Shown: positions 12,961-26,128 of the stretch, one piece after another
How the letters are laid out: each line of letters begins with the position of its first letter
Position numbering within the stretch: the first letter of the stretch is position 1
DNA from: Flavobacteriales bacterium
Lineage (GTDB): Bacteria; Bacteroidota; Bacteroidia; Flavobacteriales_F; PHOS-HE28
DNA: 64,000 nt
Assembly (NCBI GenBank): GCA_019912395.1
Contig: JAIOIH010000028.1
Coordinates: forward strand, 1 to 64,000
Reading direction: 5' to 3'
Translations under genes and position numbers: made by a program
Notes under the pieces: model-generated
Seen by the model: the letters and a program-made list of their open reading frames with translations, nothing else
The model's database searches: none
Told to the model about the DNA's origin: nothing

Positions 12961-15900
12961 TTAGGGTCGGTCAAAAGTATCGAAATACTGATCCACACGG
13001 TCCTTGTAGTAGGGTTTAAGGCCCGGAGGCACGGTGCGCAACAGTTCGGCTTCGCGCATTTTGTCGCGCTGGTAGTTGAAAAACCGCGCCGGGTCGGGGT
13101 GGTCGCGGTCCTTGCCCCGGGTGCTCTCCCGTTTCTGGTCCAGCTCCCGCTCCCGTTCCGCTTTCTCCGCTTCCAGCAAGCGCGTCATGATGTCCTGCTG
13201 GCGCTTGATGGATTCCTGCGTGAGGTTCTTGTTCACGATATCCTTCTCGTTCTGCTCCATCTGCTCGGCCAGCTTCTGCAAGCTGTTGCCGCTACCGGAA
13301 CCATCCTTGTTGAGCTCCTGGGCCATGCGCTGCATCTCCTGGCGCAATGCGGCCTGTTGGGCTGCCAGTTGGGCAAGCTGCTGGCTCATGCCGGCTCCCA
13401 TGCCTCCCGGGTTCTTCTCCCCGGGTTTCTCTCCCGGCTTCTTCCCTTTTTCCAGCGCCTTCTTCATCTCCTCCAGCTGCTTGGACAAAGCCTCCTGTTG
13501 GCTCTTGATCTTCTGCATCTTCTTGCTGTCGCCGCTGCTGCTGCCCGCACCGCCAGGTTTCTTGCAGCTCCCCTTGCCCGGCATGCCGCTGGCCTGTTGC
13601 TGCATCTGCTGCAGTGCCTCGTCGAGCATCAGGGCCAAGTTGTTCAGGGAGGTCATTGCACGTTGCTGGCGGTCCGCCGCCAAGGGACGTTCGCGGTCAT
13701 TGGCCCGCGCCTCGGCCAGGTGGGAAAGGGCTTGGTCCATGTTCTCGTTCACCAGGTTCATCTCCCGGTTCACCATGGCCTGCAACTGCGGCACGCGCTT
13801 GCTCAATGCGAAAAGCGAATCCTCCACGAGCTTGGCATCGTTGCGTAGCTTTTTCTGCTGCCGCCCGATGTCCACCAAGCGCGGGTCCCGCACGGCGGTG
13901 GCCTCCAACTCGTCCATGTTCGCCTCCTGGTCGAAGCTGAGCTGAACGATGTTCTCCAACAGTTGCCGCAGCGCATCCATGTCCTCCTCGGCCTGCTCCT
14001 GCTGGTCCTGCTGCATGCTGTTCCGCATTTCCATGGCCAACTGCTCCATCTGCTCACCCGCCTTTTTCTGGCTCTCACTGGCCTTCTTGTCCTGCTTCTT
14101 CTCCAGCTGCTCGCTGCTGTTCTTCTGCTCCTGTTCGATGCTCTCCTCCTGCTCATCCGTCTTCGGCAGGTCCAGCGGACGCTCCAAGGCTTCGTTCTTC
14201 TTGGCCAAGGAGTCCAGTTGATCGCGAACGTCCTGGAACTCCTTGTTCAGCGAGTCCTGCTTCTGCTTCAGGTCCTCCTTGTCGCGCTCACCCTCCTTGG
14301 TCTCCTCGCTCAATTTCTGTTGCTCCTCGGCCAGCTTGTCCAACTGCTCGGCGATGTCCTCCGCCTTCTGCTCCACCTCCATCTGCTTGAACTGCTCCAA
14401 GGCCCGGTCCAGCTCCTTTTCGATGTCCTCCTGGCTGAGCTTCATGTCCTGCATCTTCTCCTGCAGCTGCTCCTTGTCGATCTTCTCCAGCATCTCCTGT
14501 ACCTGCCGGTAGAGCTCCTTCATCTCCTCGCTCAACACGTTCTCGAAGAGCTCCTGCACCTGCTGTTGCTTCTGCAGGATCCGCTCGTCGCTTTCCTTGA
14601 AGCTCTGCTGCTCCTGTTGCGTTTGCTTAAGCTGCTCGGTGGCTTTTTCAATGCGCTGCTCCAGTTGCTTTTGCCGGTCCAGCACGTTCTGCATCTTCTG
14701 CTTGTCCTGCCAGTTCAGCTCTTTCTTGTCCTGCATTTCGCGGCGCATCTTGTCCAGGTCGCGCTGGAGGTCCTGGGCCTGCTTGATGCTTTCGCGCAGC
14801 TCGTCCTTGATCGCCTCGCCCTGCTTGTCCTGCTTCTCCGCCAGCTCCTTCAGGGTGGGCGCCTCGAAGACCTGCGTGGTGCTGCGTGCGCTCTTGCTGC
14901 CATTGACGCCGTCGTTGTCCCACACCTCGAACCAGTATTCCAGCTTGTCGCCCGGCATCAGGCGCAGCTCGCCGAGGTCCTCGAAGTCGAAAAAGCTCTG
15001 GCGCGTGGTGTTGGGCTGGATGCCGATGTTCTTGGTGACCTCGCGCTTGTCCGCGGGAATGCTGTCGCCGCCCTCGGTGATGCGGTAGTGGAAGGCGAGC
15101 CGCTTGAAGCCGTGGTCATCACCGATGTCGCCCTTGAAGTAGAGGCGGCGCGGTGAGAGGCTGTCGGCCTTTTGCTCCACGGCGATGGTGGGATACAGGT
15201 CCGGGACCACGTCCACGCGGTATTGTGCCGGGGTCTGTGCCTTCAGTTCGCCGTTGCCGGGGATCAACGCGTAGGTGCTGCCCTTCAGGAAGCGACGGCT
15301 TGCCGTGAACCGCTGGTCGCCGGGACTGGCCGGAAGCAGGGTGTAGGTGGTGTCGTCAAATGCGATGGCCAGCTTGTCCGCGCTGCGCGTCTCGGCCATC
15401 CACGTAACGCGGGTACCGGCGGGCACGCTGATGTCGCCGGAATTGCTGCTCACGCTGTTCTTCAGGCCCAGGTAGGGCGGATAGTCCAAGGCCACGGTAA
15501 GCCCGAGCAGCATGGGGTTGGCCTCGGTGTTCAGGCGCATGGCCGCGCTGTGGAAGCCGTCCGCGCCGAGGTGGAAATCCACCGGCTCCTGCACATTGCG
15601 GAAGCGGTGCGTGAAGTGCGAGGCATCCTGCCGCACCAAGGGGATCCGCTTGCCGCCCACTTCCAGGAAAACCTGCTGCGGCAAGGCATCGCCCTTCATC
15701 TCCACGTTCAGTTCGAAGTCCTCGTTCTCCGGCACGGTCAGTTCCTTGTTCAAGACCACGAACTGAAAGGGTGCCTCCGGCAGGAACTCCGTGCCGTGGG
15801 CAAGGAGTCGTTTCGTCGGTCCGGTGATGACGCTCGGCGCGGCGAAGAGCATGATCAGCAGTATGCCCACGGGTGGCAGCGCATAGCGTAGGTAGCGGCG

Positions 15901-16359
15901 GTTGAGCCGCAGGTCGATGGCCGTGCTGAACGGCACGGGCGAGAGTTCTCGGCTGCGCTGGGCGATGCTGGCCTCAATGAGCATGCGCCGCTGTGGGTCC
16001 TCGTCCCTTTGGCCGCGCAGTTGCAAGGTGTTCAGCAGCTTGTCCTTCACCTGCGGGAAATGGTTGCCCACGATCCCGGCGGCCTCGGCATGGGTGATCG
16101 CCGCCCCCAAACGGAAGAGCTTTACCAGCGGTCCCACGATGAACTTCACCAGCACCACCAGCGAAACCGCCGCCAGCGCCCAGAACAGGGCCGTGCGCAC
16201 CCCGGTGCCGAAGCGGCCGAAGTACTCGCTCAGGGAGACCACCAGGAAAAAGAGCACGAGCAGCCCCACGCTGTACAGGGCCCCCCGGATCAAGCGGTCC
16301 TTGTAGTACTTGCGGATGAAACCATCCAGCTTGGTGATGAGCAGGTCGTAGTCGGAAGC
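12961..16359 (-). CDS. DUF4175-family membrane protein with long coiled coil
   Basis: A 1132-aa protein from ATG 16359 (MASDYDLLITKLDGF); ATG 16386 is also in frame but adds nine weak residues. There are two N-terminal TMs (about residues 28-75), a third near residue 170, a periplasmic beta-rich part (about 190-510), then a long Gln/Glu/Lys-rich coiled coil (about 510-1050) and a basic C-terminus. It heads the unit DUF4175-ATPase-ybeY, an order seen widely in Bacteroidota. The molecular function is not established; an envelope-spanning scaffold would fit the shape. The antisense strand shows long Leu-rich frames that are shadows of the coiled coil. Confidence 0.85.
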   Translation of the reverse strand, partial: ASDYDLLITKLDGFIRKYYKDRLIRGALYSVGLLVLFFLVVSLSEYFGRFGTGVRTALFWALAAVSLVVLVKFIVGPLVKLFRLGAAITHAEAAGIVGNHFPQVKDKLLNTLQLRGQRDEDPQRRMLIEASIAQRSRELSPVPFSTAIDLRLNRRYLRYALPPVGILLIMLFAAPSVITGPTKRLLAHGTEFLPEAPFQFVVLNKELTVPENEDFELNVEMKGDALPQQVFLEVGGKRIPLVRQDASHFTHRFRNVQEPVDFHLGADGFHSAAMRLNTEANPMLLGLTVALDYPPYLGLKNSVSSNSGDISVPAGTRVTWMAETRSADKLAIAFDDTTYTLLPASPGDQRFTASRRFLKGSTYALIPGNGELKAQTPAQYRVDVVPDLYPTIAVEQKADSLSPRRLYFKGDIGDDHGFKRLAFHYRITEGGDSIPADKREVTKNIGIQPNTTRQSFFDFEDLGELRLMPGDKLEYWFEVWDNDGVNGSKSARSTTQVFEAPTLKELAEKQDKQGEAIKDELRESIKQAQDLQRDLDKMRREMQDKKELNWQDKQKMQNVLDRQKQLEQRIEKATEQLKQTQQEQQSFKESDERILQKQQQVQELFENVLSEEMKELYRQVQEMLEKIDKEQLQEKMQDMKLSQEDIEKELDRALEQFKQMEVEQKAEDIAEQLDKLAEEQQKLSEETKEGERDKEDLKQKQDSLNKEFQDVRDQLDSLAKKNEALERPLDLPKTDEQEESIEQEQKNSSEQLEKKQDKKASESQKKAGEQMEQLAMEMRNSMQQDQQEQAEEDMDALRQLLENIVQLSFDQEANMDELEATAVRDPRLVDIGRQQKKLRNDAKLVEDSLFALSKRVPQLQAMVNREMNLVNENMDQALSHLAEARANDRERPLAADRQQRAMTSLNNLALMLDEALQQMQQQASGMPGKGSCKKPGGAGSSSGDSKKMQKIKSQQEALSKQLEEMKKALEKGKKPGEKPGEKNPGGMGAGMSQQLAQLAAQQAALRQEMQRMAQELNKDGSGSGNSLQKLAEQMEQNEKDIVNKNLTQESIKRQQDIMTRLLEAEKAERERELDQKRESTRGKDRDHPDPARFFNYQRDKMREAELLRTVPPGLKPYYKDRVDQYFDTFDRP

Positions 16360-16790
16360 CATGGGCGCAATGGGGTGCCCTGCCACAACGGGACGGCACC
16401 AACGGAATTGTCCCGAAAGTTAGGCAGTCTCGCGGGTTTGCCGATCCCAAGGGTCCTGAACGGAACAGACCGGCCGATCGGCCATCTCGTGGGCACACGC
16501 TCTCATGGTGGCACGTGAGCTGCTGCGGGAGGGCCATTGGGAAGGGAATAGCGAGGCTGTTCCAGACGGCGGAACCGATCCCCGCTTCCCCGACGCCATT
16601 TCCCCGTTATACCCGTTCTACCCGTCATGGCCGAAGGGCCGGAATGGGGGTTTCCGGGGTGCGCTTTGGGAGACCTCGTAGAAATACGGGTTTTCCCGGT
16701 TCCCCCCGTGGGAATTGGGATACGGCATCAATTAAACGTAAACTTGTATGTCCCGTACGTCGATACGAACATTACTAAAATCCCAGGACC
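16360..16790. other. Divergent intergenic region upstream of the aldehyde dehydrogenase
   Basis: No gene is recognised. It contains a perfect palindrome GGCCGATCGGCC (16472-16483), two tandem 9-mers TACCCGTTC/TACCCGTCA (16610-16627), and an inverted repeat GAAATACGGGTTTTCCCGG from 16681. A weak promoter match TTG (16715-16717), 21-nt spacer, TAAACTTG (16739-16746) lies 45 bp before the dehydrogenase start. Confidence 0.45.
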
Positions 16791-18314
16791 ATGACAACCA
16801 TGACCGCCGCACCGGTACTTGAAAAACTGAACCTGAGCGCCGCCAACACGGCGTTCATTAAGCGCGCGAGCAAATTGCTGATCAACGGCGAATGGGTGCA
16901 CTCCGCGAGCGGCAAGACCTTCCCTACGTACAACCCCGCGACGGGGGAGGTGATCACCCGCTGTGCCGAAGGGGACAAGGAGGACATCAAGCGCGCGGTG
17001 GCCGCAGCACGAGAGGCCTTTGAGAAGGGACCATGGAAGACGATGACCGCCGCCGAACGCGGACGGATCATCTGGAAGATCGGCGACCTGATGCTGGAGC
17101 ACATCGACGACCTTGCGGAGCTTGAAGCATTGGACAATGGCAAAACACGCAGCGTCGCCCGCCATGTGGACCTGCCCCTCGCCCTGGATGCGTTCCACTA
17201 CATGGCAGGCTGGGCCACCAAGATCTGCGGGCAGACCTTCCCCATTTCCGTACCTTATGTTCCCGGCGGGAATTTCCATGCGTTTTCGCTGCGCGAACCC
17301 GTGGGCGTAGTGGGCCAGATCATCCCCTGGAACTTCCCGCTGCTGATGGCCGCCTGGAAACTGGGGCCCGCGCTCGCGGCCGGATGCACGGTGGTGTTGA
17401 AGCCGGCGGAACAGACCCCCCTCACCGCCTTGCGACTGGGCGAATTGATGATCGAGGCCGGTGTGCCTCCCGGCGTGGTGAACATCGTGACCGGATACGG
17501 CGAAACCGCAGGTGCTTCGCTGGCTGCGCATGATGATGTGGACAAGGTGGCCTTCACCGGGTCCACGGAAGTGGGCAAGTTGATCGTGCAGGCCGCCGCA
17601 GGCAATCTGAAGAAGGTGAGCTTGGAGCTCGGCGGCAAATCACCGAACGTGATCTTCAAGGATGCACCGGACCTTGCCGGTGCGATCACGGGCGCGGCCA
17701 ACGCGGTGTTCTTCAACCACGGCCAATGTTGCGTGGCAGGTACCCGGCTGTATGCCGAAAAGTCCGTTTTCGACCAGGTGGTCGATGGCATCTCGGAACA
17801 GGCCCAAAAGATCAAGCTCGGCTTCGGGCTTGACCCGGACACCGATATGGGACCGCTGGTTTCCGAGGAACAACTGGCCCGCGTGACCGGCTACCTTGAC
17901 GCGGGTCGTCGCGATGGCGTTGAATTCGTGACCGGCGGAAAGCGGTTCGGCGACCGCGGATACTTCGTGGAACCAACGGTGATGACCAAGACGAAGAACA
18001 CGATGAGCGTGGTGCAGGAGGAGATCTTCGGCCCCGTGCTCGTGGCGCAGCCCTTCAGCGATGAGGAGGAGCTGATCAACATGGCCAACGACACTACCTA
18101 CGGCCTCGCTGCGGCGGTCTGGACCAAGGACATCAGTCGTGCACACCGCATCGCCAAGGCCTATCGCGCAGGTACTGTTTGGGTGAACTGCTACAACATC
18201 TTCGACTCTGCCCTGCCCTTCGGTGGGTACAAGCAAAGCGGCTGGGGTCGTGAAATGAGCGGTGAGGCCCTGGAACTTTACACCGAATCGAAGGCCGTGA
18301 TCGTCGCCCTTTGA
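16791..18314 (+). CDS. NAD(P)-dependent aldehyde dehydrogenase
   Basis: A 507-aa ALDH-superfamily enzyme oxidising an aldehyde to the acid. It shows IIPWNFPLLMAAWKLGPALA (coenzyme site), GSTEVGKLI, the general-base motif LELGGKSPN and catalytic Cys in NHGQCCVAGTRLY. It also has QEEIFGPVL and the C-terminal GGYKQSGWGREMS. The closest styles are betaine/phenylacetaldehyde-type ALDH1 enzymes, but the substrate cannot be fixed. It is a single gene with a long upstream region holding inverted repeats, suggesting its own regulation. Confidence 0.9.
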   Translation: MTTMTAAPVLEKLNLSAANTAFIKRASKLLINGEWVHSASGKTFPTYNPATGEVITRCAEGDKEDIKRAVAAAREAFEKGPWKTMTAAERGRIIWKIGDLMLEHIDDLAELEALDNGKTRSVARHVDLPLALDAFHYMAGWATKICGQTFPISVPYVPGGNFHAFSLREPVGVVGQIIPWNFPLLMAAWKLGPALAAGCTVVLKPAEQTPLTALRLGELMIEAGVPPGVVNIVTGYGETAGASLAAHDDVDKVAFTGSTEVGKLIVQAAAGNLKKVSLELGGKSPNVIFKDAPDLAGAITGAANAVFFNHGQCCVAGTRLYAEKSVFDQVVDGISEQAQKIKLGFGLDPDTDMGPLVSEEQLARVTGYLDAGRRDGVEFVTGGKRFGDRGYFVEPTVMTKTKNTMSVVQEEIFGPVLVAQPFSDEEELINMANDTTYGLAAAVWTKDISRAHRIAKAYRAGTVWVNCYNIFDSALPFGGYKQSGWGREMSGEALELYTESKAVIVAL

Positions 18315-18372: not shown

Positions 18373-21300
18373 ATGCAATGCGCCACCTGCCATAACGAAA
18401 ACCCGCCGGGTGCCCAGTATTGCGCTCACTGCGGGACAACCGCACCGCCGACATGCCCCCGGTGCGGCACCGGTAGCATTGCGGGTGCCCGGTTCTGTCA
18501 TTCCTGCGGAAGCGCATTGGCGGATACGACCGTTCCCGATGCGGGGATCGAGCCGGGGCATCAGGCCATGTCGATCGCGGAAGCCGCACCCGAATCCACC
18601 TTCGCCGAGCAGCGGCAGCTCTCGGTGATCTTCAGTGACCTGGTGTCCTTCACCCAGCTTTCCCAGCAGCTGGACCCGGAGGACCTGAACACGGCGGTGC
18701 ATGCGTACTACGAAGTGTGCCGGGCCGTGTGCGAGCGTTACGAGGGCCATGTCGCCAACTACCTCGGCGATGGCGTGCTCATGTACTTCGGTTATCCCAA
18801 AGCGCACGAGGACGATGCCCCCCGAGCCGTGCGCACCGGGCTCGCCGTGATAGAGGGCATCACCGCGCTGAACGAGCGCTTGCAAAAGGAGCTCAACGTA
18901 AGGCTGGCCGTGCGGGTGGGGATCCATTCCGGGATGATGATCGTGGGGGACGACCGTGCCGGGAACTGGGAGAAGATGGCCCTCGGCGAAACGCTGAACA
19001 TCGCAGCTCGCGTGCAAGGCGTGGCTACGGCAGGTTCCGTGGCGATCAGCTCCGTCACACAGCAACTGGTCGAAGGTTTCTTCTCCTCGCGCAGCATGGG
19101 TATCCACACGCTGAAAGGTGTGGAACAACCGATGGAATTGTTCGCCGTTATGCACGAGAGCACGGCGCGTGGCCGCCTCGAGGCCGCCGGCCGGTCCACG
19201 CTCACCCCGCTCACCGGCAGGCAGGATGAAGTGGACCTGCTGCTTGAGGAATGGCGGCGGGCATGCGACGGTGATGGTCGCACCGTGCTGATCAACGCCG
19301 AGGGCGGGATGGGGAAATCCCGATTGGTACACATGCTGAAGGAACACGTGGCCGGCATGCCCGCCGCTTGGCTGACGCCCTGCCAGTGCTCCCCGTACCA
19401 TCAAAGCACATCCATGTATCCGTTCATCGACCTGATCGAACGGGTGGTGCTGAAGTTCGAACGGCATGAATCGCCGCGCGACAAACTGAAGAAGCTCGAG
19501 GGCATGCTCGTGCAGTACGGCTTCCATATCCCGGACAGCCTGCCCGTGTTCGGCGCGTTCCACTCGCTGCCACCGGAAGCCGGATATGTGCCCACGCCCC
19601 TGGACCCCGCACGACAACGCCGCGCGTACATGGACGCGATGGTGAGCATCCTGAAGGACCGGTCCCTGAAGCAACCCCTGCTATTCGTGGTAGAGGACCT
19701 GCACTGGGTGGACCCCACCACGCTGGAAACGCTGAGGGAACTGGTGGACGTGGCGGACAGGCACAACATGATGATGCTCTTCACTTGCCGACCGGAGTTC
19801 GAGTCGCCTTGGAAGGACCACCGCAGCGTGCGGACCATGGCGCTGCCACGGCTCGACCCGGAGCAAACACGCACGCTGTGCAAGCATGTGGCCAAGAGCA
19901 AGCAACTACCGGATGAGGTCGTGGAGCAGATCATTGAACGGGCCGATGGCGTACCGTTGTTCACCGAGGAGTTGACGAAGATGATCATTGGGTCGGGGCT
20001 GCTGGAGGAGGACGGGAACACGTATGTGCTGACCGGCCCCTTGCCGCCCTTGGCTATCCCGGCCACCTTGCAGGATTCGCTCATGGCCCGGCTGGACCGC
20101 CTTGCGGCGGTGAAGGAGGTGGCCCAGGTCGGTGCGGTGATCGGCCGGAGCTTCAGCTACGAGCTGATGCACTATGTGTTCCCGGTGGAGGATGCCGTGC
20201 TGAAGCACAGCCTCGGGCAATTGGTGGCGGAAGAGATCATCGAACGTTCCGGCGACACCGTGCACGGGGAGTACACCTTCAAGCATGCACTCGTGCAGGA
20301 AGCAGCCTATCGTTCATTGATCAAAAGCCGGCGCCAGCACCATCACCGATTGATCGCGCACGCCTTGGAGGAACACTTCCCGGAGATCGTGGAGGCGGAA
20401 CCGGAAATGCTCGCGTACCACTATGCCAAAGCGAACCTTGGCTGGCAGGCCATACCCTACCTGCAGCGCGCGGGCGAGAAGGCATCGGACCGGTCCTCGC
20501 ATGTGGAGGCCATCACGCATTTCGAGCGCGGGCTTGAACAGGTGCGCTCCCTTTCGGACACCGGCCAACGCTGGCAGTTGGAGATCTGCCTGCTCATCGC
20601 ATTGGGCGCATCGCTCACCGCCACCAGCGGATACGGCACCAAGGAGGTGGAGCAGACCTATACGCACGCGCGGGACCTGTGCGAGCAGTTCGGCACGCCC
20701 GCGCAATTGTTCCAATCCAGCTATGGGCTGTGGCGCCTGCACATGCTCCGCGCCGAGTACGATATCGCGATCAAGCAAGGGGAATACCTGCTGGAACTCG
20801 CGCAACGACAGGACAGCACCGCCTTCCTGATCGCCGCGCACCGGGCGCTCGGTGCCACGCTCTTCTACAGGGGGTATTTCGATCGCGCGCGGAAACATGT
20901 GGAAAGCGTGATCGCCATGACCGGCGAGGAGGATGACAGCAGCACCCTGATCCGCGACATTTACGATGTGGTGGACCCCCGCGTAACGTGCCGCTCCTAC
21001 CGCTCGTGGATCCTGTGGATGCAAGGCTTCCCGGACAGGGCCCGAAAGGAGAGTGCCCGCGCCATGCGGCTGGCCGAGCGCCTCGACCATCCGTTCTCCA
21101 TCGCGCTCGCGTTGAGCTTTGCCTCCTGGTTGGAGCAATTCCTCGGCAATGCCGGACGGGTGAGGGAACTCGCCGGGAAAGCGATCGCACATTGCCAAGC
21201 ACACGGCTTCCCGTTCTGGGTGGGCTGGAACCAGGTATTGCTCGCTTGGGCCTCGGCCCATGAGGACGGCGCGACACCTGCCCACATTGCCGACATCGAG

Positions 21301-21744
21301 GAAGGGCTGGTACACTGGAAGGAGAACGGATCGAACCTGGGCCGCAGCTATTTCTTCTGCCTGCTCGCGGAGACGCTTCTTCGCCTGGGTGAACCCGTCC
21401 GCGCCATGGAGATCCTCACACGTGCGCGCACCTTCATCTACGAACGCGACGAGCGCTACTGGGAAGCCGAGTACCACCGCTTGAGCGGCGAAGCGGAACT
21501 GGCCATGGGCACCGACCCCCACCAGGCGCGGATCCGATCGCGCGAGGCATTGTACGTGGCGCGGCATCTCGGTGCCCGGTCATTGGAGCTTCGGGCGCTG
21601 ACAAGCCTGTCCAGGCAAAGCGGACCGGACGGCAATGGGAAAATCGGGCTTGAACTGGCCGAGCTGCTAGGTCAATTCGCGGAAGACACGAACACGCCGG
21701 ACCTCATCGCGGCACGCTCACTGGTGCAACGCGCTGTCGGGTAG
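18373..21744 (+). CDS. Zinc-ribbon / class III cyclase / AAA ATPase / TPR fusion protein
   Basis: A 1123-aa multidomain signalling protein. Two zinc ribbons (CATC..CAHC and CPRC..CHSC, residues 3-50) precede a class III nucleotide cyclase domain. That domain has metal Asp in IFSDLVSFTQ and ANYLGDGVLMYFGYP (about 80-260). An AAA/STAND-like ATPase follows, with P-loop NAEGGMGKSR and Walker B-like VVEDLHWVD (about 280-560), then TPR-like helices to the end. This architecture is common in Proteobacteria and Myxococcota, so acquisition is possible. The cyclase product cannot be told from sequence. The last 27 bp overlap the 3' end of the convergent ferritin-like gene. Confidence 0.85.
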   Translation: MQCATCHNENPPGAQYCAHCGTTAPPTCPRCGTGSIAGARFCHSCGSALADTTVPDAGIEPGHQAMSIAEAAPESTFAEQRQLSVIFSDLVSFTQLSQQLDPEDLNTAVHAYYEVCRAVCERYEGHVANYLGDGVLMYFGYPKAHEDDAPRAVRTGLAVIEGITALNERLQKELNVRLAVRVGIHSGMMIVGDDRAGNWEKMALGETLNIAARVQGVATAGSVAISSVTQQLVEGFFSSRSMGIHTLKGVEQPMELFAVMHESTARGRLEAAGRSTLTPLTGRQDEVDLLLEEWRRACDGDGRTVLINAEGGMGKSRLVHMLKEHVAGMPAAWLTPCQCSPYHQSTSMYPFIDLIERVVLKFERHESPRDKLKKLEGMLVQYGFHIPDSLPVFGAFHSLPPEAGYVPTPLDPARQRRAYMDAMVSILKDRSLKQPLLFVVEDLHWVDPTTLETLRELVDVADRHNMMMLFTCRPEFESPWKDHRSVRTMALPRLDPEQTRTLCKHVAKSKQLPDEVVEQIIERADGVPLFTEELTKMIIGSGLLEEDGNTYVLTGPLPPLAIPATLQDSLMARLDRLAAVKEVAQVGAVIGRSFSYELMHYVFPVEDAVLKHSLGQLVAEEIIERSGDTVHGEYTFKHALVQEAAYRSLIKSRRQHHHRLIAHALEEHFPEIVEAEPEMLAYHYAKANLGWQAIPYLQRAGEKASDRSSHVEAITHFERGLEQVRSLSDTGQRWQLEICLLIALGASLTATSGYGTKEVEQTYTHARDLCEQFGTPAQLFQSSYGLWRLHMLRAEYDIAIKQGEYLLELAQRQDSTAFLIAAHRALGATLFYRGYFDRARKHVESVIAMTGEEDDSSTLIRDIYDVVDPRVTCRSYRSWILWMQGFPDRARKESARAMRLAERLDHPFSIALALSFASWLEQFLGNAGRVRELAGKAIAHCQAHGFPFWVGWNQVLLAWASAHEDGATPAHIADIEEGLVHWKENGSNLGRSYFFCLLAETLLRLGEPVRAMEILTRARTFIYERDERYWEAEYHRLSGEAELAMGTDPHQARIRSREALYVARHLGARSLELRALTSLSRQSGPDGNGKIGLELAELLGQFAEDTNTPDLIAARSLVQRAVG

Positions 21745-22824
21745 CTCGAAGCTCGGCCCCAGCACCGTACCCGCCACGCCGCTCGGTACGTTCATCAAGG
21801 CCGAAGCACGCTGTTTCAATAGCAGCATGTACGGAACGGAACGCTGAAGGCTTTCCTTCTTCCCGTTCAGGCCCTTCTCCAATTCCTGCAGCAGCTTCCA
21901 CCAGGTCTCGTTGCACTCGTCCATCACCTTCCGGCGTGGATCATCGGCCGTGTACCATCCGCTTTTGGGGTTGCTGATCATGTTCTTCATGCGGGTCCAA
22001 TCCACGGGCAGCACCGCGCCGGTGGGGCCGCTCGCCGGTGTGTCGCCCTGTTGGAAGCGGCGGCCCAGGCTGATCTCCATGAAGCGGTAGTAGTGCGCCA
22101 GTTCAAAGCCGATGCCATCGATCACCTGGCCCTTTTCGGATATGCCGTGATCGTTGCCCTCGCCCTGATGGATGATCTCCTTGCACGCCGCGATCGCCGA
22201 TCCCCAGCTGTTCACCAACACCACCTTGCCATGCCCGTTGTAATAATCGCTCGGTGCGACCTGCCGCTCCGGGTGGTGATCGAAGCGGATCTCGCCCTTC
22301 TTGGCCAGACGCACGATGGCTTCCATGATCGCCGCATAGAACTGCCCGATGGTACCGTAGCCATCCGCCTTCGCGTGCGTGTCCTTCGGCGTGGGCAGCT
22401 CGATGCGCATGAAGGTCTGCAACGCGGCGATGCTCAATGGTTGAATGCTCACTTGGAACGAGCCGTCGCTATCCGGAAGGATCGCGGGGTACTCGGGTGC
22501 CACGCCCTTCATTGCGAGCACGGGATCACCCCCGATGGCGTTGAGGATGTTCGCCGCGAGGATCATGTGCAGCATCTCCTCCATCATCACGCTGCGCACC
22601 AGTCCTGCCACCTCCAGGTTCGTGCCTTCCTCAATGGAAGCAAGCGCCGTGAGGTATGGCGGTATGGTGGAGAGCTCGAGTTCCAGCGCCACCTGCAGGT
22701 GATCGCGAAGGGACTTCGCATCCGGGATCTCATGAGGTCTCTTCCGCTGGACCGCGGCACGCTTTGCGCCATGGAGTGGCTTGATCGCCCGAACGAGCTC
22801 ACTGAATTTGTGCGTCAGGTTCAT
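21718..22824 (-). CDS. Ferritin-like protein of the VioB/iminophenylpyruvate dimer synthase type
   Basis: A 368-aa protein with a four-helix ferritin-like domain at about residues 30-260. Metal-binding helices show LELELSTIPPYLTALASIEE and MMEEMLHMILAANILNAIGG (ExxH). The same domain occurs in VioB and RebD-type enzymes that couple imine forms of tryptophan-derived acids; the isolated domain is otherwise uncharacterised. It is last in a four-gene minus-strand operon and starts with a 4-bp ATGA overlap with the GMC oxidoreductase gene, implying coupled translation. No polyketide synthase-like fusion is present. Substrate unknown. Confidence 0.75.
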   Translation of the reverse strand: MNLTHKFSELVRAIKPLHGAKRAAVQRKRPHEIPDAKSLRDHLQVALELELSTIPPYLTALASIEEGTNLEVAGLVRSVMMEEMLHMILAANILNAIGGDPVLAMKGVAPEYPAILPDSDGSFQVSIQPLSIAALQTFMRIELPTPKDTHAKADGYGTIGQFYAAIMEAIVRLAKKGEIRFDHHPERQVAPSDYYNGHGKVVLVNSWGSAIAACKEIIHQGEGNDHGISEKGQVIDGIGFELAHYYRFMEISLGRRFQQGDTPASGPTGAVLPVDWTRMKNMISNPKSGWYTADDPRRKVMDECNETWWKLLQELEKGLNGKKESLQRSVPYMLLLKQRASALMNVPSGVAGTVLGPSFELPDSALHQ

Positions 22825-24692
22825 AGGGCCTTGGATGTGTGCTTGTCCAGGTCCTTGATGATCGCTCGGGAGGCCCGGAACGCCAACGCCGCCATGGTGA
22901 GCGAAGGGTTCGATGTGCCGAAGGTGGGCATGGCCCCGCAGCCCACCAGGTAGAGGTTCTTGTGGTCCCAGCAGCGCAGATGGGAGTCCGTGACGGAGTT
23001 GTTCCGGTTACTGCCCATGCGGTGTGTGCCCACATAATGACCGCAACCCTTGTAGGAGTATACCTTGCCATTGTACTCGGCATGGCATGGATCACTGACG
23101 CTGTACTGGGTCTTGTTGGTGATGCCCGCCTTCTTGAAGATCCGCTCGCTGATCCGTACGCCGGCCTCCATGGTCCTGCGCACATAATCCGAAAGTTCGT
23201 AGTGGATGATCGGCCGCGGCACGCCGAGCGGATCGAGGAAGTTGCGGTCTATCGTGACGCGGTTGTACGCCTCTCCCACCTGCTCGATCTCGAATTGCAA
23301 GGTCACCTGGCGGGAAAAGTCATGCGCCACCTTCTGCCGCAACGCGCTGCCGAACATGCCCTGGCCCACGAGCTGCGCGAAGGGAACATCCGGCGCAAAG
23401 GCGCTCCAGATCCAACCCCAGTTGTCGATCGGCAGCACGAACGCGGCCATCTCCGAACGGAAGGGACCGTCGCGGAAGGTGGGGATCGCGTTGGTTTGGC
23501 CGGGACCGCGGAAAGGCCAGACCGGCTCGTCCATCAAACCCCAGGTCAGCATCGTGGGATGGTCCATCAGGTTGCGCCCCAATTGATCGCTGTGGTTGCC
23601 GATATCGGAGAGCAGCATCAGCTTCGCCGTTTCCACCGCGTGCGCCGCGATGATGTACACCCTGCCCTTGGCGCGTTTCTTCCGTGCCGGTGCCCCATCC
23701 TGTGCATAGGCCATGTACTCGATGTACTGGACCCGCCCGTTATCCTTGCTCGTTTGGATGAAGGTGGCCACGGACTGGCATTCGATCGTGACAAGCGATA
23801 CCGGGCCTTTTTTGAGGGCTTGTGCCCGGTTCAAGGTGCGGTGCGCGGAGTACTTCGCCTGCACCGGGCAGATCGGCGCACAGCTGGAATTGCCTTGGCA
23901 GCGCTCGCCTCGCAACGGGTCGCTTTGGGTACCCGTGGGTGAATAGTCGCCCTTCTTTCCGCTCAAGGGATCCACATAGTCCGGGTTGGGCATGCCGTTG
24001 CGGCCCTGTGGCGTCGGCGTGACCCTGATCTTGTAGTCCTTGCCGCCAACATCCACTTTCAGGTCACCGATGCGCGCAGCCAGTCGCTTGGCCACGTAGC
24101 TGTCCGGCATCTTCTTCATCGGGTAGGTGTAGCCTTCCCAATAGGTTTTCGGGTCCACGCCGGGCAGCCAGTACTCACCCACATCGCCGGAAACACCGAT
24201 CTCGCGCTCGGCACTTTCGTAGTCCTTCCGCAGCTCGTCGTACCCGATGGGCCAATCCACGCCCACGCCGTACATCGAGCGCATCCGGAAGTCGTTCGGC
24301 AGCATGCGCAGGGCACACGCCAACCAGTGCATCGTGGTGCCACCCTTGGAACGGGTGTAGTCGCTCCCGAAATTCTGCGGCCCCTTCTGCACGAAATAAC
24401 CCAGGCTGTTCGGCACGCCCTTCTTGATCGGTGCCAATTGCAGCACATCGGGTTGCGGAGCCATGGCGGTGGGCGGATACGGGGAGTTGGGCACCTTGGC
24501 CAGCGCGCCATGGAAGGTGTCCACCACCGATCGCCAGCCGTCCTCATCATCGCGGATGCTGCGGCCCGCTTCCAGGACCAGCACGCGCTTGCCCTTGCGC
24601 GCGAGCTCCAGGGCCACGATCGCGCCGGATGCGCCTGCACCAACGATCACGGCATCATACTCCTCGGTGGTCGGTATCAATTCCTTCATCAT
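22821..24692 (-). CDS. GMC-family FAD oxidoreductase with Cys-x5-Cys-x3-Cys-Pro cluster motif
   Basis: 623 aa from ATG 24692 (MMKELIPTTEEYDAVIVG). The FAD Rossmann motif is VGAGASGAIVALELARKG and the GMC C-terminal region is GTHRMGS...NPSLTMAALA. C265, C271 and C275 form CQGNSSCAPICP, the C-x5-C-x3-CP pattern associated with a 3Fe-4S cluster in FAD-dependent glucose/sorbitol dehydrogenases. It is probably a dehydrogenase passing electrons out through the cluster, not an oxidase. The upstream small-subunit gene overlaps by 4 bp (ATGA) and the downstream ferritin-like gene by 4 bp. An upstream in-frame ATG at 25019 is rejected because it lies inside the small-subunit gene. No Tat or Sec signal is seen. 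Confidence 0.85.
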   Translation of the reverse strand: MMKELIPTTEEYDAVIVGAGASGAIVALELARKGKRVLVLEAGRSIRDDEDGWRSVVDTFHGALAKVPNSPYPPTAMAPQPDVLQLAPIKKGVPNSLGYFVQKGPQNFGSDYTRSKGGTTMHWLACALRMLPNDFRMRSMYGVGVDWPIGYDELRKDYESAEREIGVSGDVGEYWLPGVDPKTYWEGYTYPMKKMPDSYVAKRLAARIGDLKVDVGGKDYKIRVTPTPQGRNGMPNPDYVDPLSGKKGDYSPTGTQSDPLRGERCQGNSSCAPICPVQAKYSAHRTLNRAQALKKGPVSLVTIECQSVATFIQTSKDNGRVQYIEYMAYAQDGAPARKKRAKGRVYIIAAHAVETAKLMLLSDIGNHSDQLGRNLMDHPTMLTWGLMDEPVWPFRGPGQTNAIPTFRDGPFRSEMAAFVLPIDNWGWIWSAFAPDVPFAQLVGQGMFGSALRQKVAHDFSRQVTLQFEIEQVGEAYNRVTIDRNFLDPLGVPRPIIHYELSDYVRRTMEAGVRISERIFKKAGITNKTQYSVSDPCHAEYNGKVYSYKGCGHYVGTHRMGSNRNNSVTDSHLRCWDHKNLYLVGCGAMPTFGTSNPSLTMAALAFRASRAIIKDLDKHTSKAL

Positions 24693-25207
24693 GGCTCGGC
24701 ATCGGTGTTCACCTTCACCAGGGGGGGATAGCTCCACGAGCCGTATCCCATGGGTTTGGCGGCCTGCGGATGCGTGCCGAAGGCCGGCCACACGAGCCCT
24801 TCGCGATAGGCTTTCGGCGAGACCACCTGCGACACATCGTTCATGCACGATCCATAGGTATCGCTCCACGCGGAAGGCATGGCGCTCCATGTGCCCATGT
24901 ACCATAGGGTGATGATGCGTTGTGCGATCGGCCCGTATTTGGGGTCGTTCATCACGCGTTTGCCCAATGCCGCTTCGAGTTCCTTCGCGTTCCTGCTTTT
25001 TGCGAAGGCGCTTCCGCACGCGGAGAGGAACTCACCCGCAATGGCACTTCCCACCCGGCCCAGCAGCAGGTTCCAATAGCTCTCGCTCATGCCCGTGCCC
25101 TGCAGTTCCACCACCTCGAACGCCGTGAGCGCCGCGGAAGCAGCGAGGAACTGTTCGGCTGGATCGGAAGGGTAGTCCATGGGGAGGTGGATCGGACGAT
25201 CAGACAA
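24689..25207 (-). CDS. FAD-dependent sorbitol/gluconate dehydrogenase-type small subunit
   Basis: Up to 172 aa. It resembles the small (gamma) subunit of membrane-bound FAD sugar/alcohol dehydrogenases: SAALTAFEVVEL near the N-terminus, then IITLWYMGTWSAMP, DTYGSCMNDVSQVVSP and GLVWPAFGTHPQAAKPMGYG. Known gamma subunits carry a Tat signal and co-export the catalytic subunit; none is present here. The start could be ATG 25180 (MDYPSDPAEQF), because the residues before it are encoded by a GGATCGGACGATC repeat. It precedes the GMC gene with ATGA overlap, as expected of a partner subunit. Confidence 0.65.
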   Translation of the reverse strand: MSDRPIHLPMDYPSDPAEQFLAASAALTAFEVVELQGTGMSESYWNLLLGRVGSAIAGEFLSACGSAFAKSRNAKELEAALGKRVMNDPKYGPIAQRIITLWYMGTWSAMPSAWSDTYGSCMNDVSQVVSPKAYREGLVWPAFGTHPQAAKPMGYGSWSYPPLVKVNTDAEP

Positions 25208-25233
25208 TTGGACGATCAGGGGATCGGACGATC
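25190..25233. repeat. GGATCGGACGATC repeat array in the operon
   Basis: GGATCGGACGATC occurs at 25190-25202 and again at 25221-25233, with GGACGATCAGG between. It lies in the 30-bp gap between two operon genes and runs into the possible 5' end of the small-subunit gene. Confidence 0.55.
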
Positions 25234-25237
25234 GGCA

Positions 25238-26128
25238 TTACTTCTTCTTCCCGAGGTCCACGTAATAGGCCCTGTTCTCGGCAGCGGCGGGTGGTGAGAT
25301 GAAAATGCGCACGGCCACCACTTTCGGGGAACGGCCCAGGACGGTGCGCAGGTCCTGCGCCATGGGATGCGTGCTCTTGCCGATGGTGAACTTGAACTTC
25401 GCACGGTGTTCCTTGCTCAATCCCAAGTACTCCTCGTACATGCCGAACATGTTCCACCGCGACCCGATCAGGTCCATGTCCTTCCCGCCCGGTGGCCGGT
25501 TGGGCCCGCCCGGCAACATGCTGTACAAGGTGAGGGGCGAGCCATTGCCCACCGTGAACGGGATCTTGCTCAGGTCGGCCTCCAGCGTATAGATCGCACG
25601 GGACTTGTCACCAGCGAACTTCGGGTCGAAGACGGTGTAGTTCCACGTCTTCTGCTCGGGCAGGTCGGGCGTGGGCACCAGGTAATCGAAGGTGGTGAGG
25701 AACTTGCGCTCGCCGAACACCGCGATACCCGCCTTCACCGCGATCGGATTGTCCGCCGGTACGTGCAGGCGCATCTCGCCGATCAACTTCGTCTGCTCGT
25801 TCCCGCGCAGGTACTCGGCCAGAAGCATCACGGGAACGTCCTTCTCGCTCTTCTCCGGGTAGGCGTGTACATTGAACTCGATCTCGTTGGTGGGTGCCAC
25901 CGCCATGCCGATATGTGCACCGTAGTTCTGGAAATTCAGCGACACCAGCGCCATGCCCTTCGCCTCCGGATCGAGAAAACGCGCCGGTTTCAATCGCGTG
26001 TCCTTCAGCAGCGGGGTCACCAGTTTGGCATCCACCCAGTAATAGGTCCAGAGCAGCGAAAGCGAACTGTAGAAGAACGGCATTTTGAAGGTGGCGTCCT
26101 GCGGAGGGAAGATGGGTTGCTTGGCCAT
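25238..26128 (-). CDS. Conserved hypothetical protein, possibly acetoacetate-decarboxylase-like fold
   Basis: 296 aa, first gene of the four-gene operon. No signal peptide and no clear TM; FFYSSLSLLWTYYWV is an aromatic amphipathic stretch. The stretch ARFLDPEAKGMALVSLNFQN and the following YGAHIGMAV resemble the core strand region of acetoacetate decarboxylase-superfamily proteins. The catalytic lysine of true decarboxylases cannot be placed with confidence, so the fold assignment is tentative. Its position upstream of a dehydrogenase pair suggests a role in handling the same substrate; this is inference. Confidence 0.55.
   Translation of the reverse strand: MAKQPIFPPQDATFKMPFFYSSLSLLWTYYWVDAKLVTPLLKDTRLKPARFLDPEAKGMALVSLNFQNYGAHIGMAVAPTNEIEFNVHAYPEKSEKDVPVMLLAEYLRGNEQTKLIGEMRLHVPADNPIAVKAGIAVFGERKFLTTFDYLVPTPDLPEQKTWNYTVFDPKFAGDKSRAIYTLEADLSKIPFTVGNGSPLTLYSMLPGGPNRPPGGKDMDLIGSRWNMFGMYEEYLGLSKEHRAKFKFTIGKSTHPMAQDLRTVLGRSPKVVAVRIFISPPAAAENRAYYVDLGKKK

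Follow-up and report, generated by a model that had tools for sequence, protein, structure and literature searches.

A ferritin-like protein gene adjoins a predicted cytoplasmic relative of FAD-dependent sugar dehydrogenases in a Flavobacteriales genome

Glucose dehydrogenase (GDH) and fructose dehydrogenase (FDH) enzymes dependent on flavin adenine dinucleotide (FAD) are the basis of direct-electron-transfer biosensors. In the members of this family described so far, to our knowledge, the electrons go to a heme-c subunit located outside the cytoplasm. In the B. cepacia enzyme (BcGDH), the small subunit bears a twin-arginine translocation (Tat) signal. A disulfide between its gamma-Cys152 and alpha-Cys213 of the catalytic subunit ties the two together, and the 3Fe-4S cluster is 7-8 Å away from the third heme of the cytochrome subunit (PMC9727119). 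Here we examine a relative of these enzymes encoded in a 64,000-nucleotide stretch of a Flavobacteriales bacterium (contig JAIOIH010000028.1, positions 1 to 64,000, hereafter the window). Its core unit consists of three genes, encoding a small subunit of the type found in FAD-dependent sorbitol dehydrogenase (SLDH), a GMC flavoprotein and a PF12902 ferritin-like protein. The three products may form a cytoplasmic oxidoreductase in which the ferritin-like protein takes the place of the cytochrome.

In the window, the three genes follow a fourth, ADC-like gene. All four are intact and are read on the minus strand from 26128 to 21718:

25238-26128, minus strand: ADC-superfamily protein (P0004), 296 amino acids, with a candidate Schiff-base Lys142 in a GE-x-K motif
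24689-25180, minus strand: small subunit of the FAD-SLDH/FDH/GDH type (P0003), ATG start, without signal peptide
22821-24692, minus strand: GMC flavoprotein, FAD/3Fe-4S-type catalytic subunit (P0002), 623 amino acids, with C265, C271 and C275, H552 and N595
21718-22824, minus strand: PF12902 ferritin-like protein (P0001), 368 amino acids, with putative diiron ligands E50, E83, H86, E142, E222 and H244

This order is the one given by the initial annotation, which had also described the ATGA overlaps among the last three genes; these are found at the small subunit/GMC and GMC/ferritin-like junctions. A gap of about 30-57 bp separates the ADC-like gene from the small subunit gene. For the latter, a TTG at 25207 offers an alternative start, but the ATG at 25180 is better supported by the alignment. 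A longer GTG open reading frame (ORF) for the GMC protein, reaching 25019, would overlap the small subunit. The proposal that the four genes form one unit stands for the three-gene core, which is conserved, but not for the ADC-like gene, which is optional and occurs in 13 of 93 GMC rows.

The conservation of the core was established from the catalytic subunit outwards. A genome-contig scan with the GMC alignment returned 523 relatives, the best 80 of which were kept and examined, and neighbours were found by profile searches of these 80 loci. Since the loci were picked by GMC similarity alone, the neighbours did not bias the choice. The small subunit gene lies just before the GMC gene and the ferritin-like gene just after it in all 80 loci (with a second GMC copy intervening in L096). 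Conservation of the gene order had been set beforehand as the observation on which the proposal should be judged, and this adjacency upholds it. The hosts span five phyla: Bacteroidota, Acidobacteriota, Verrucomicrobiota, Pseudomonadota and Actinomycetota. The trio occurs on Bacteroidota contigs and on plasmids of alpha- and betaproteobacteria and of a cyanobacterium; plasmid copies include those of Ruegeria and, in the order GMC-ferritin-small, those of rhizobia, Agrobacterium and the one cyanobacterium. Among 395 sampled Bacteroidota, trio-type GMC genes are present in four genomes, including that of the window.

The GMC protein has as its closest relatives in the PDB the B. cepacia FAD-GDH (E 5.6e-73) and the large subunit of fructose dehydrogenase of Gluconobacter. 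Its motif C265-x5-C271-x3-C275-P reads exactly as first annotated. The three cysteines are kept in 93 of 93 GMC proteins, as are the catalytic His and Asn (H552, N595). In the alignment, their spacing equals that of C212, C218 and C222 of BcGDH, which we take to be the ligands of its 3Fe-4S cluster, and a 3Fe-4S site is predicted here accordingly placed. The window small subunit falls below the PF12318 cut-off (17.4 versus 24.2 bits), and its orthologue at L004 lies above it. Structure predictions were built from alignments of the window and genome-contig rows. The small subunit model (pLDDT 87) matches the FDH small subunit 8jej_B with Z 10.2 and the BcGDH gamma subunit 6a2u_A with Z 9.5, the best unrelated structure reaching only Z 2.9. 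On this model, P0003 is a small subunit of the FDH/GDH fold.

The third protein of the trio matches PF12902 with 183.1 bits (gathering cut-off 22.3) and has a solved relative, 3hl1 (E 2.9e-27). Four carboxylates and two histidines (E50, E83, H86, E142, E222 and H244) are invariant in 73 of 73 ferritin-like sequences, a pattern from which we infer a full diiron ligand set. The initial label ‘ferritin-like VioB-type’ is right in its first part and loose in its second. VioB identity was rejected for P0001, with TIGR04492 giving 21.5 bits against an equivalog cut-off of 1250, and the condensing or VioB-like step suggested for this protein finds no direct support. In Nonomuraea (L044:7968-9710), a single protein combines a PF12902 domain with two CDGSH iron-sulfur domains and a weakly matching Fer4_19-like region, and no GMC gene was found beside its gene; the PF12902 ferritin family can thus pair with Fe-S electron carriers.

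The features that define the secreted enzymes were looked for throughout. Among the 93 small subunits there is no signal peptide, of the Tat type or any other, and no strongly hydrophobic N-terminus; the three RR matches fall at residues 38-39, within the folded domain and not at a signal position. No cysteine occupies GMC position 266, which aligns with alpha-Cys213 of BcGDH, in any of the 93 proteins (the residues are E, V, A, Q, M or T, with Q266 in the window). The small subunit likewise has no conserved cysteine, no alignment column holding more than 7 Cys among 69 sequences. At no locus is there an ORF with at least two CxxCH motifs within 6 kb of the GMC gene. The absence of Tat signal, disulfide cysteine and multiheme gene fits what is expected of a cytosolic, heme-free form. 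The initial annotation had noted the missing Tat signal and cytochrome, and its idea of a cytoplasmic relative of FAD sugar dehydrogenases tied to a diiron-type ferritin-like protein draws support from these losses and from the linkage of the trio. Since the three defining features were tested and are not there, the window enzyme, judged by its sequence, lies outside the secreted heme-c dehydrogenase complexes, though its catalytic and small subunits belong to the FAD-GDH/FDH lineage.

Around the trio, other neighbours vary by lineage and include heme_bind_FMP, BBE oxidase, phosphoesterase and GH15/iolE genes. A heme_bind_FMP gene (NF040572) lies near or adjoining the trio in 38 loci (e.g. L109:13018-13953), the window not being among them. 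On the rhizobial plasmids L034, L035 and L036, the GMC-ferritin-like-small block sits between a GH15 gene and iolE or sugar isomerase genes, a setting that hints at a sugar or cyclitol as substrate in that branch. In Flavobacterium and related loci (L080, L074, L083), the trio is continued downstream by ABM, Dabb, berberine-bridge-type oxidase and Cupin_5 genes, which form a longer shared cluster. On a plasmid of Cupriavidus sp. P-10 (L037:5415-8177), the GMC gene is split between frames and a second GMC copy is in pieces, the trio being otherwise present together with an ADC-like gene.

The ADC-like protein required a fold search. P0004 has no Pfam match of its own, and PDB sequence searches with ADC-like profiles gave chance matches only. 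Two relatives pass the PF06314 cut-off of 29.8 bits (L091 with 31.7, L087 with 30.0). The AlphaFold model (pLDDT 82.9) matches ADC, MppR and aldolase-dehydratase structures with Z 18-20 (top 20.2; best unrelated 5.4), and all 24 significant Foldseek matches belong to the ADC superfamily (E ~5e-11). Seven residues (E82, E84, Q112, K114, E140, K142 and R286) are invariant in 14 ADC-like sequences. According to the model, P0004 is a true ADC-fold protein, and the initial ‘ADC-like’ label was right. The distribution of its gene needs 8 changes on the GMC tree, so that repeated gain or loss has taken place. Within the window's genus, no further genome among 44 carries it, and among the 395 sampled Bacteroidota it is present in the window genome only. 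In Nocardia (L039:8977-9789), a homologue stands apart from any trio, in a cluster with a TauD dioxygenase, a DegT aminotransferase and glycosyltransferases.

Two further genes lie beyond the ferritin-like gene on the opposite strand:

18373-21744, plus strand: zinc-ribbon/class III nucleotide cyclase/AAA ATPase/TPR protein, convergent with the operon
16791-18314, plus strand: aldehyde dehydrogenase, 59 bp upstream of the cyclase gene, its membership of the unit doubtful

The cyclase gene overlaps the stop of the ferritin-like gene by 27 bp. Missed by the initial annotation, it belongs to the same recurrent neighbourhood. Its product matches PF12773, PF00211 and PF13191, with weak TPR matches, and the Pfam scan found no kinase domain. 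Besides the window, a homologue of this type adjoins the unit in L032, L087, L091, L093 and L094. These six loci (the window, two Ruegeria, two Lewinellaceae and one Saprospiraceae) all bear the ADC-like gene, so that the gene is adjacent in 6 of 13 ADC-bearing rows and in none of the remaining 80 (Fisher p 2e-6, without correction for relatedness). On the GMC tree, five of these loci group in a single clade (SH-aLRT 94%) that spans two phyla. The window GMC protein falls outside this clade, on a long and uncertain branch, which gives two separate places in the tree. Three gene orders occur: the cyclase gene lies upstream of the unit in Ruegeria, downstream of it in the Lewinellaceae and Saprospiraceae loci, and convergent to it in the window. 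A defence reading of the cyclase was not adopted, the PADLOC matches to the Pycsar cyclase PycC being confined to the cyclase domain (59.5 bits) and no effector having been sought. The aldehyde dehydrogenase was not adopted as a sixth member, as it lies near the unit in only one other locus (L032). It is nearest to StyD phenylacetaldehyde dehydrogenase models, below their cut-offs, and its best near-full-length matches in other members of the genus are about 48-50% identical; it has no close relative there.

We propose that the unit encodes a cytoplasmic FAD/Fe-S oxidoreductase of three subunits. It would descend from the FAD-GDH/FDH/SLDH family, with a diiron ferritin-like subunit in place of the heme-c subunit and with an optional Schiff-base lyase and cyclase regulator. 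From its sequence features, we put the probability of this reading at about 50%. The GMC subunit would oxidise a hydroxyl of a small substrate with FAD, probably a sugar or cyclitol in the rhizobial branch, and hand the electrons on to the 3Fe-4S cluster that it carries itself. Tat export would no longer be a task of the small subunit, which would persist as a structural or assembly partner. The PF12902 diiron protein would stand in for the heme-c subunit and deliver the electrons to an acceptor, in the simplest case O2 or peroxide. In ADC-bearing variants, the Schiff-base enzyme may decarboxylate, cleave or condense the carbonyl product. In the subset that includes the window, the cyclase/STAND-type ATPase/TPR protein is a likely sensor-regulator.

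The cytoplasmic complex, the route from FAD through 3Fe-4S to diiron, the terminal acceptor, the substrate and the regulatory role are all things that we infer. The kept 3Fe-4S motif implies a one-electron partner. Of the partner genes, the ferritin-like one alone remains with the enzyme, and the putative ligands of its product are kept, which points to electron flow to the diiron site. Several observations weigh on the other side. The support for a complex, and for electron transfer to the diiron protein, is indirect. A Streptomyces plasmid (L038) has the arrangement small-GMC-ADC with no ferritin-like gene found there, and on two other plasmids, of Rhizobium (L042:8188-10122) and Bradyrhizobium (L043:7579-8993), an intact ferritin-like gene lies beside C-terminal GMC remnants. 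The cyclase family, finally, is common and multicopy in rhizobia. Because those copies are about as similar to that of the window (39-40%) as the linked ones (33-40%), it is linkage and not sequence that carries the cyclase argument.

A tentative alternative is a two-step pathway. The GMC and small subunits would then make up a complete dehydrogenase that uses a different acceptor. The GMC product would be the substrate of the ferritin-like protein, an independent diiron oxidase or oxygenase, with the ADC-like lyase acting next. PF12902 domains do sit in VioB/RebD-type enzymes, the similarity to VioB itself being weak, and many loci encode additional oxidative enzymes (ABM, BBE oxidase, Dabb, cupin, FMP heme protein) in the manner of tailoring clusters. 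However, there is no VioB-level match, and the trio stays intact while the remaining neighbourhood changes completely between lineages. As the trio is kept while the pathways around it change, a subunit fits better than a pathway enzyme. Sequence alone cannot decide whether the ferritin-like protein takes up electrons or acts on the GMC product.

An unlikely option is that the ferritin-like protein protects or services the enzyme off the catalytic path, storing iron for the Fe-S cluster or removing peroxide in a rubrerythrin-like manner. Its ferritin fold with a full predicted diiron ligand set would suit such a task, and the heme_bind_FMP gene found near many trios is related to FMP-type peroxidase. 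Against this, its near-absolute one-to-one linkage with one enzyme and the tight, often overlapping genes suggest a stoichiometric partnership more than a general role in handling iron or peroxide. An ordinary secreted FAD dehydrogenase using a cytochrome encoded elsewhere is very improbable, for the homology of the GMC protein and small subunit to secreted enzymes stands against 93 small subunits with no export signal, the absent disulfide cysteines and the lack of a nearby multiheme gene.

The genomic setting bears on how the window came by its unit. RNase R and its neighbours, to the right of the unit, are conserved across the genus. The gene at 12961-16386, which encodes a large protein, has a counterpart of 93% identity in the sister genome G023. 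There, about 19 kb separate this counterpart from RNase R; the interval holds other genes, and nothing of the unit is seen. The stretch that holds the unit in the window is therefore variable, and the unit was probably acquired. As a clean empty site G023 was rejected: both flanks are kept, but other genes fill the interval. Base composition gives no sign of a recent arrival of the unit.

A widespread cytoplasmic diiron form, if confirmed, would be a new way of wiring a flavin/Fe-S dehydrogenase to its acceptor. Many genes annotated as ‘ferritin-like protein’ and ‘hypothetical protein’ would thereby acquire a function. The regulation of the unit can be approached through its recurrent cyclase neighbour. 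More doubtfully, the trio could stand for a new class of soluble flavin/3Fe-4S/diiron oxidases in which electrons from alcohols or sugars pass through Fe-S to a diiron subunit, and not a heme cytochrome, that reduces O2 (to water, if by four electrons), an ADC-fold enzyme and a cyclase-ATPase regulator having been added in some lineages. In the open-access literature we found no paper on the trio, or on a GMC protein with a ferritin-like or VioB protein, an FMP peroxidase or a cyclase in such a system, which is weak evidence of novelty.

Each component can be set beside a known system. The cyclase protein resembles the TOMM-system kinase/cyclase fusion of TIGR03903 in its cyclase, ATPase and TPR parts, aligned over residues 70-1080. 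It remains below the cut-off (575.3 versus 705.75 bits), the match starts at model position 274, the kinase domain is absent, and the N-terminus holds a zinc ribbon. P0004 shares its fold with the ADC superfamily (3c8w and 3bh2; MppR, 4jm3; aldolase-dehydratase, 4zbt) and has an invariant Lys in GE-x-K, K142, as a candidate counterpart of ADC Lys115, but identity in the structural alignment is about 11-13%, so the ADC reaction cannot be transferred to it. With the PF12902 proteins, including the solved 3hl1 and the domain of VioB/RebD/StaD-type enzymes, P0001 has in common the domain and the conserved ligand-type residues. It differs from the VioB/RebD/StaD-type enzymes in being a stand-alone protein whose gene adjoins a dehydrogenase gene, and in scoring far under the VioB equivalog cut-off. 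The closest comparison is with the FAD-GDH of B. cepacia (6a2u, 8hdd) and the FDH of G. japonicus (7w2j, 8jej), which share the C-x5-C-x3-C motif, the catalytic His/Asn in the GMC subunit and a small subunit of the same fold. Where these enzymes have a Tat signal, inter-subunit disulfide cysteines and a triheme cytochrome subunit, the window type has none of the three, and a PF12902 ferritin-like gene stands in place of the cytochrome gene.

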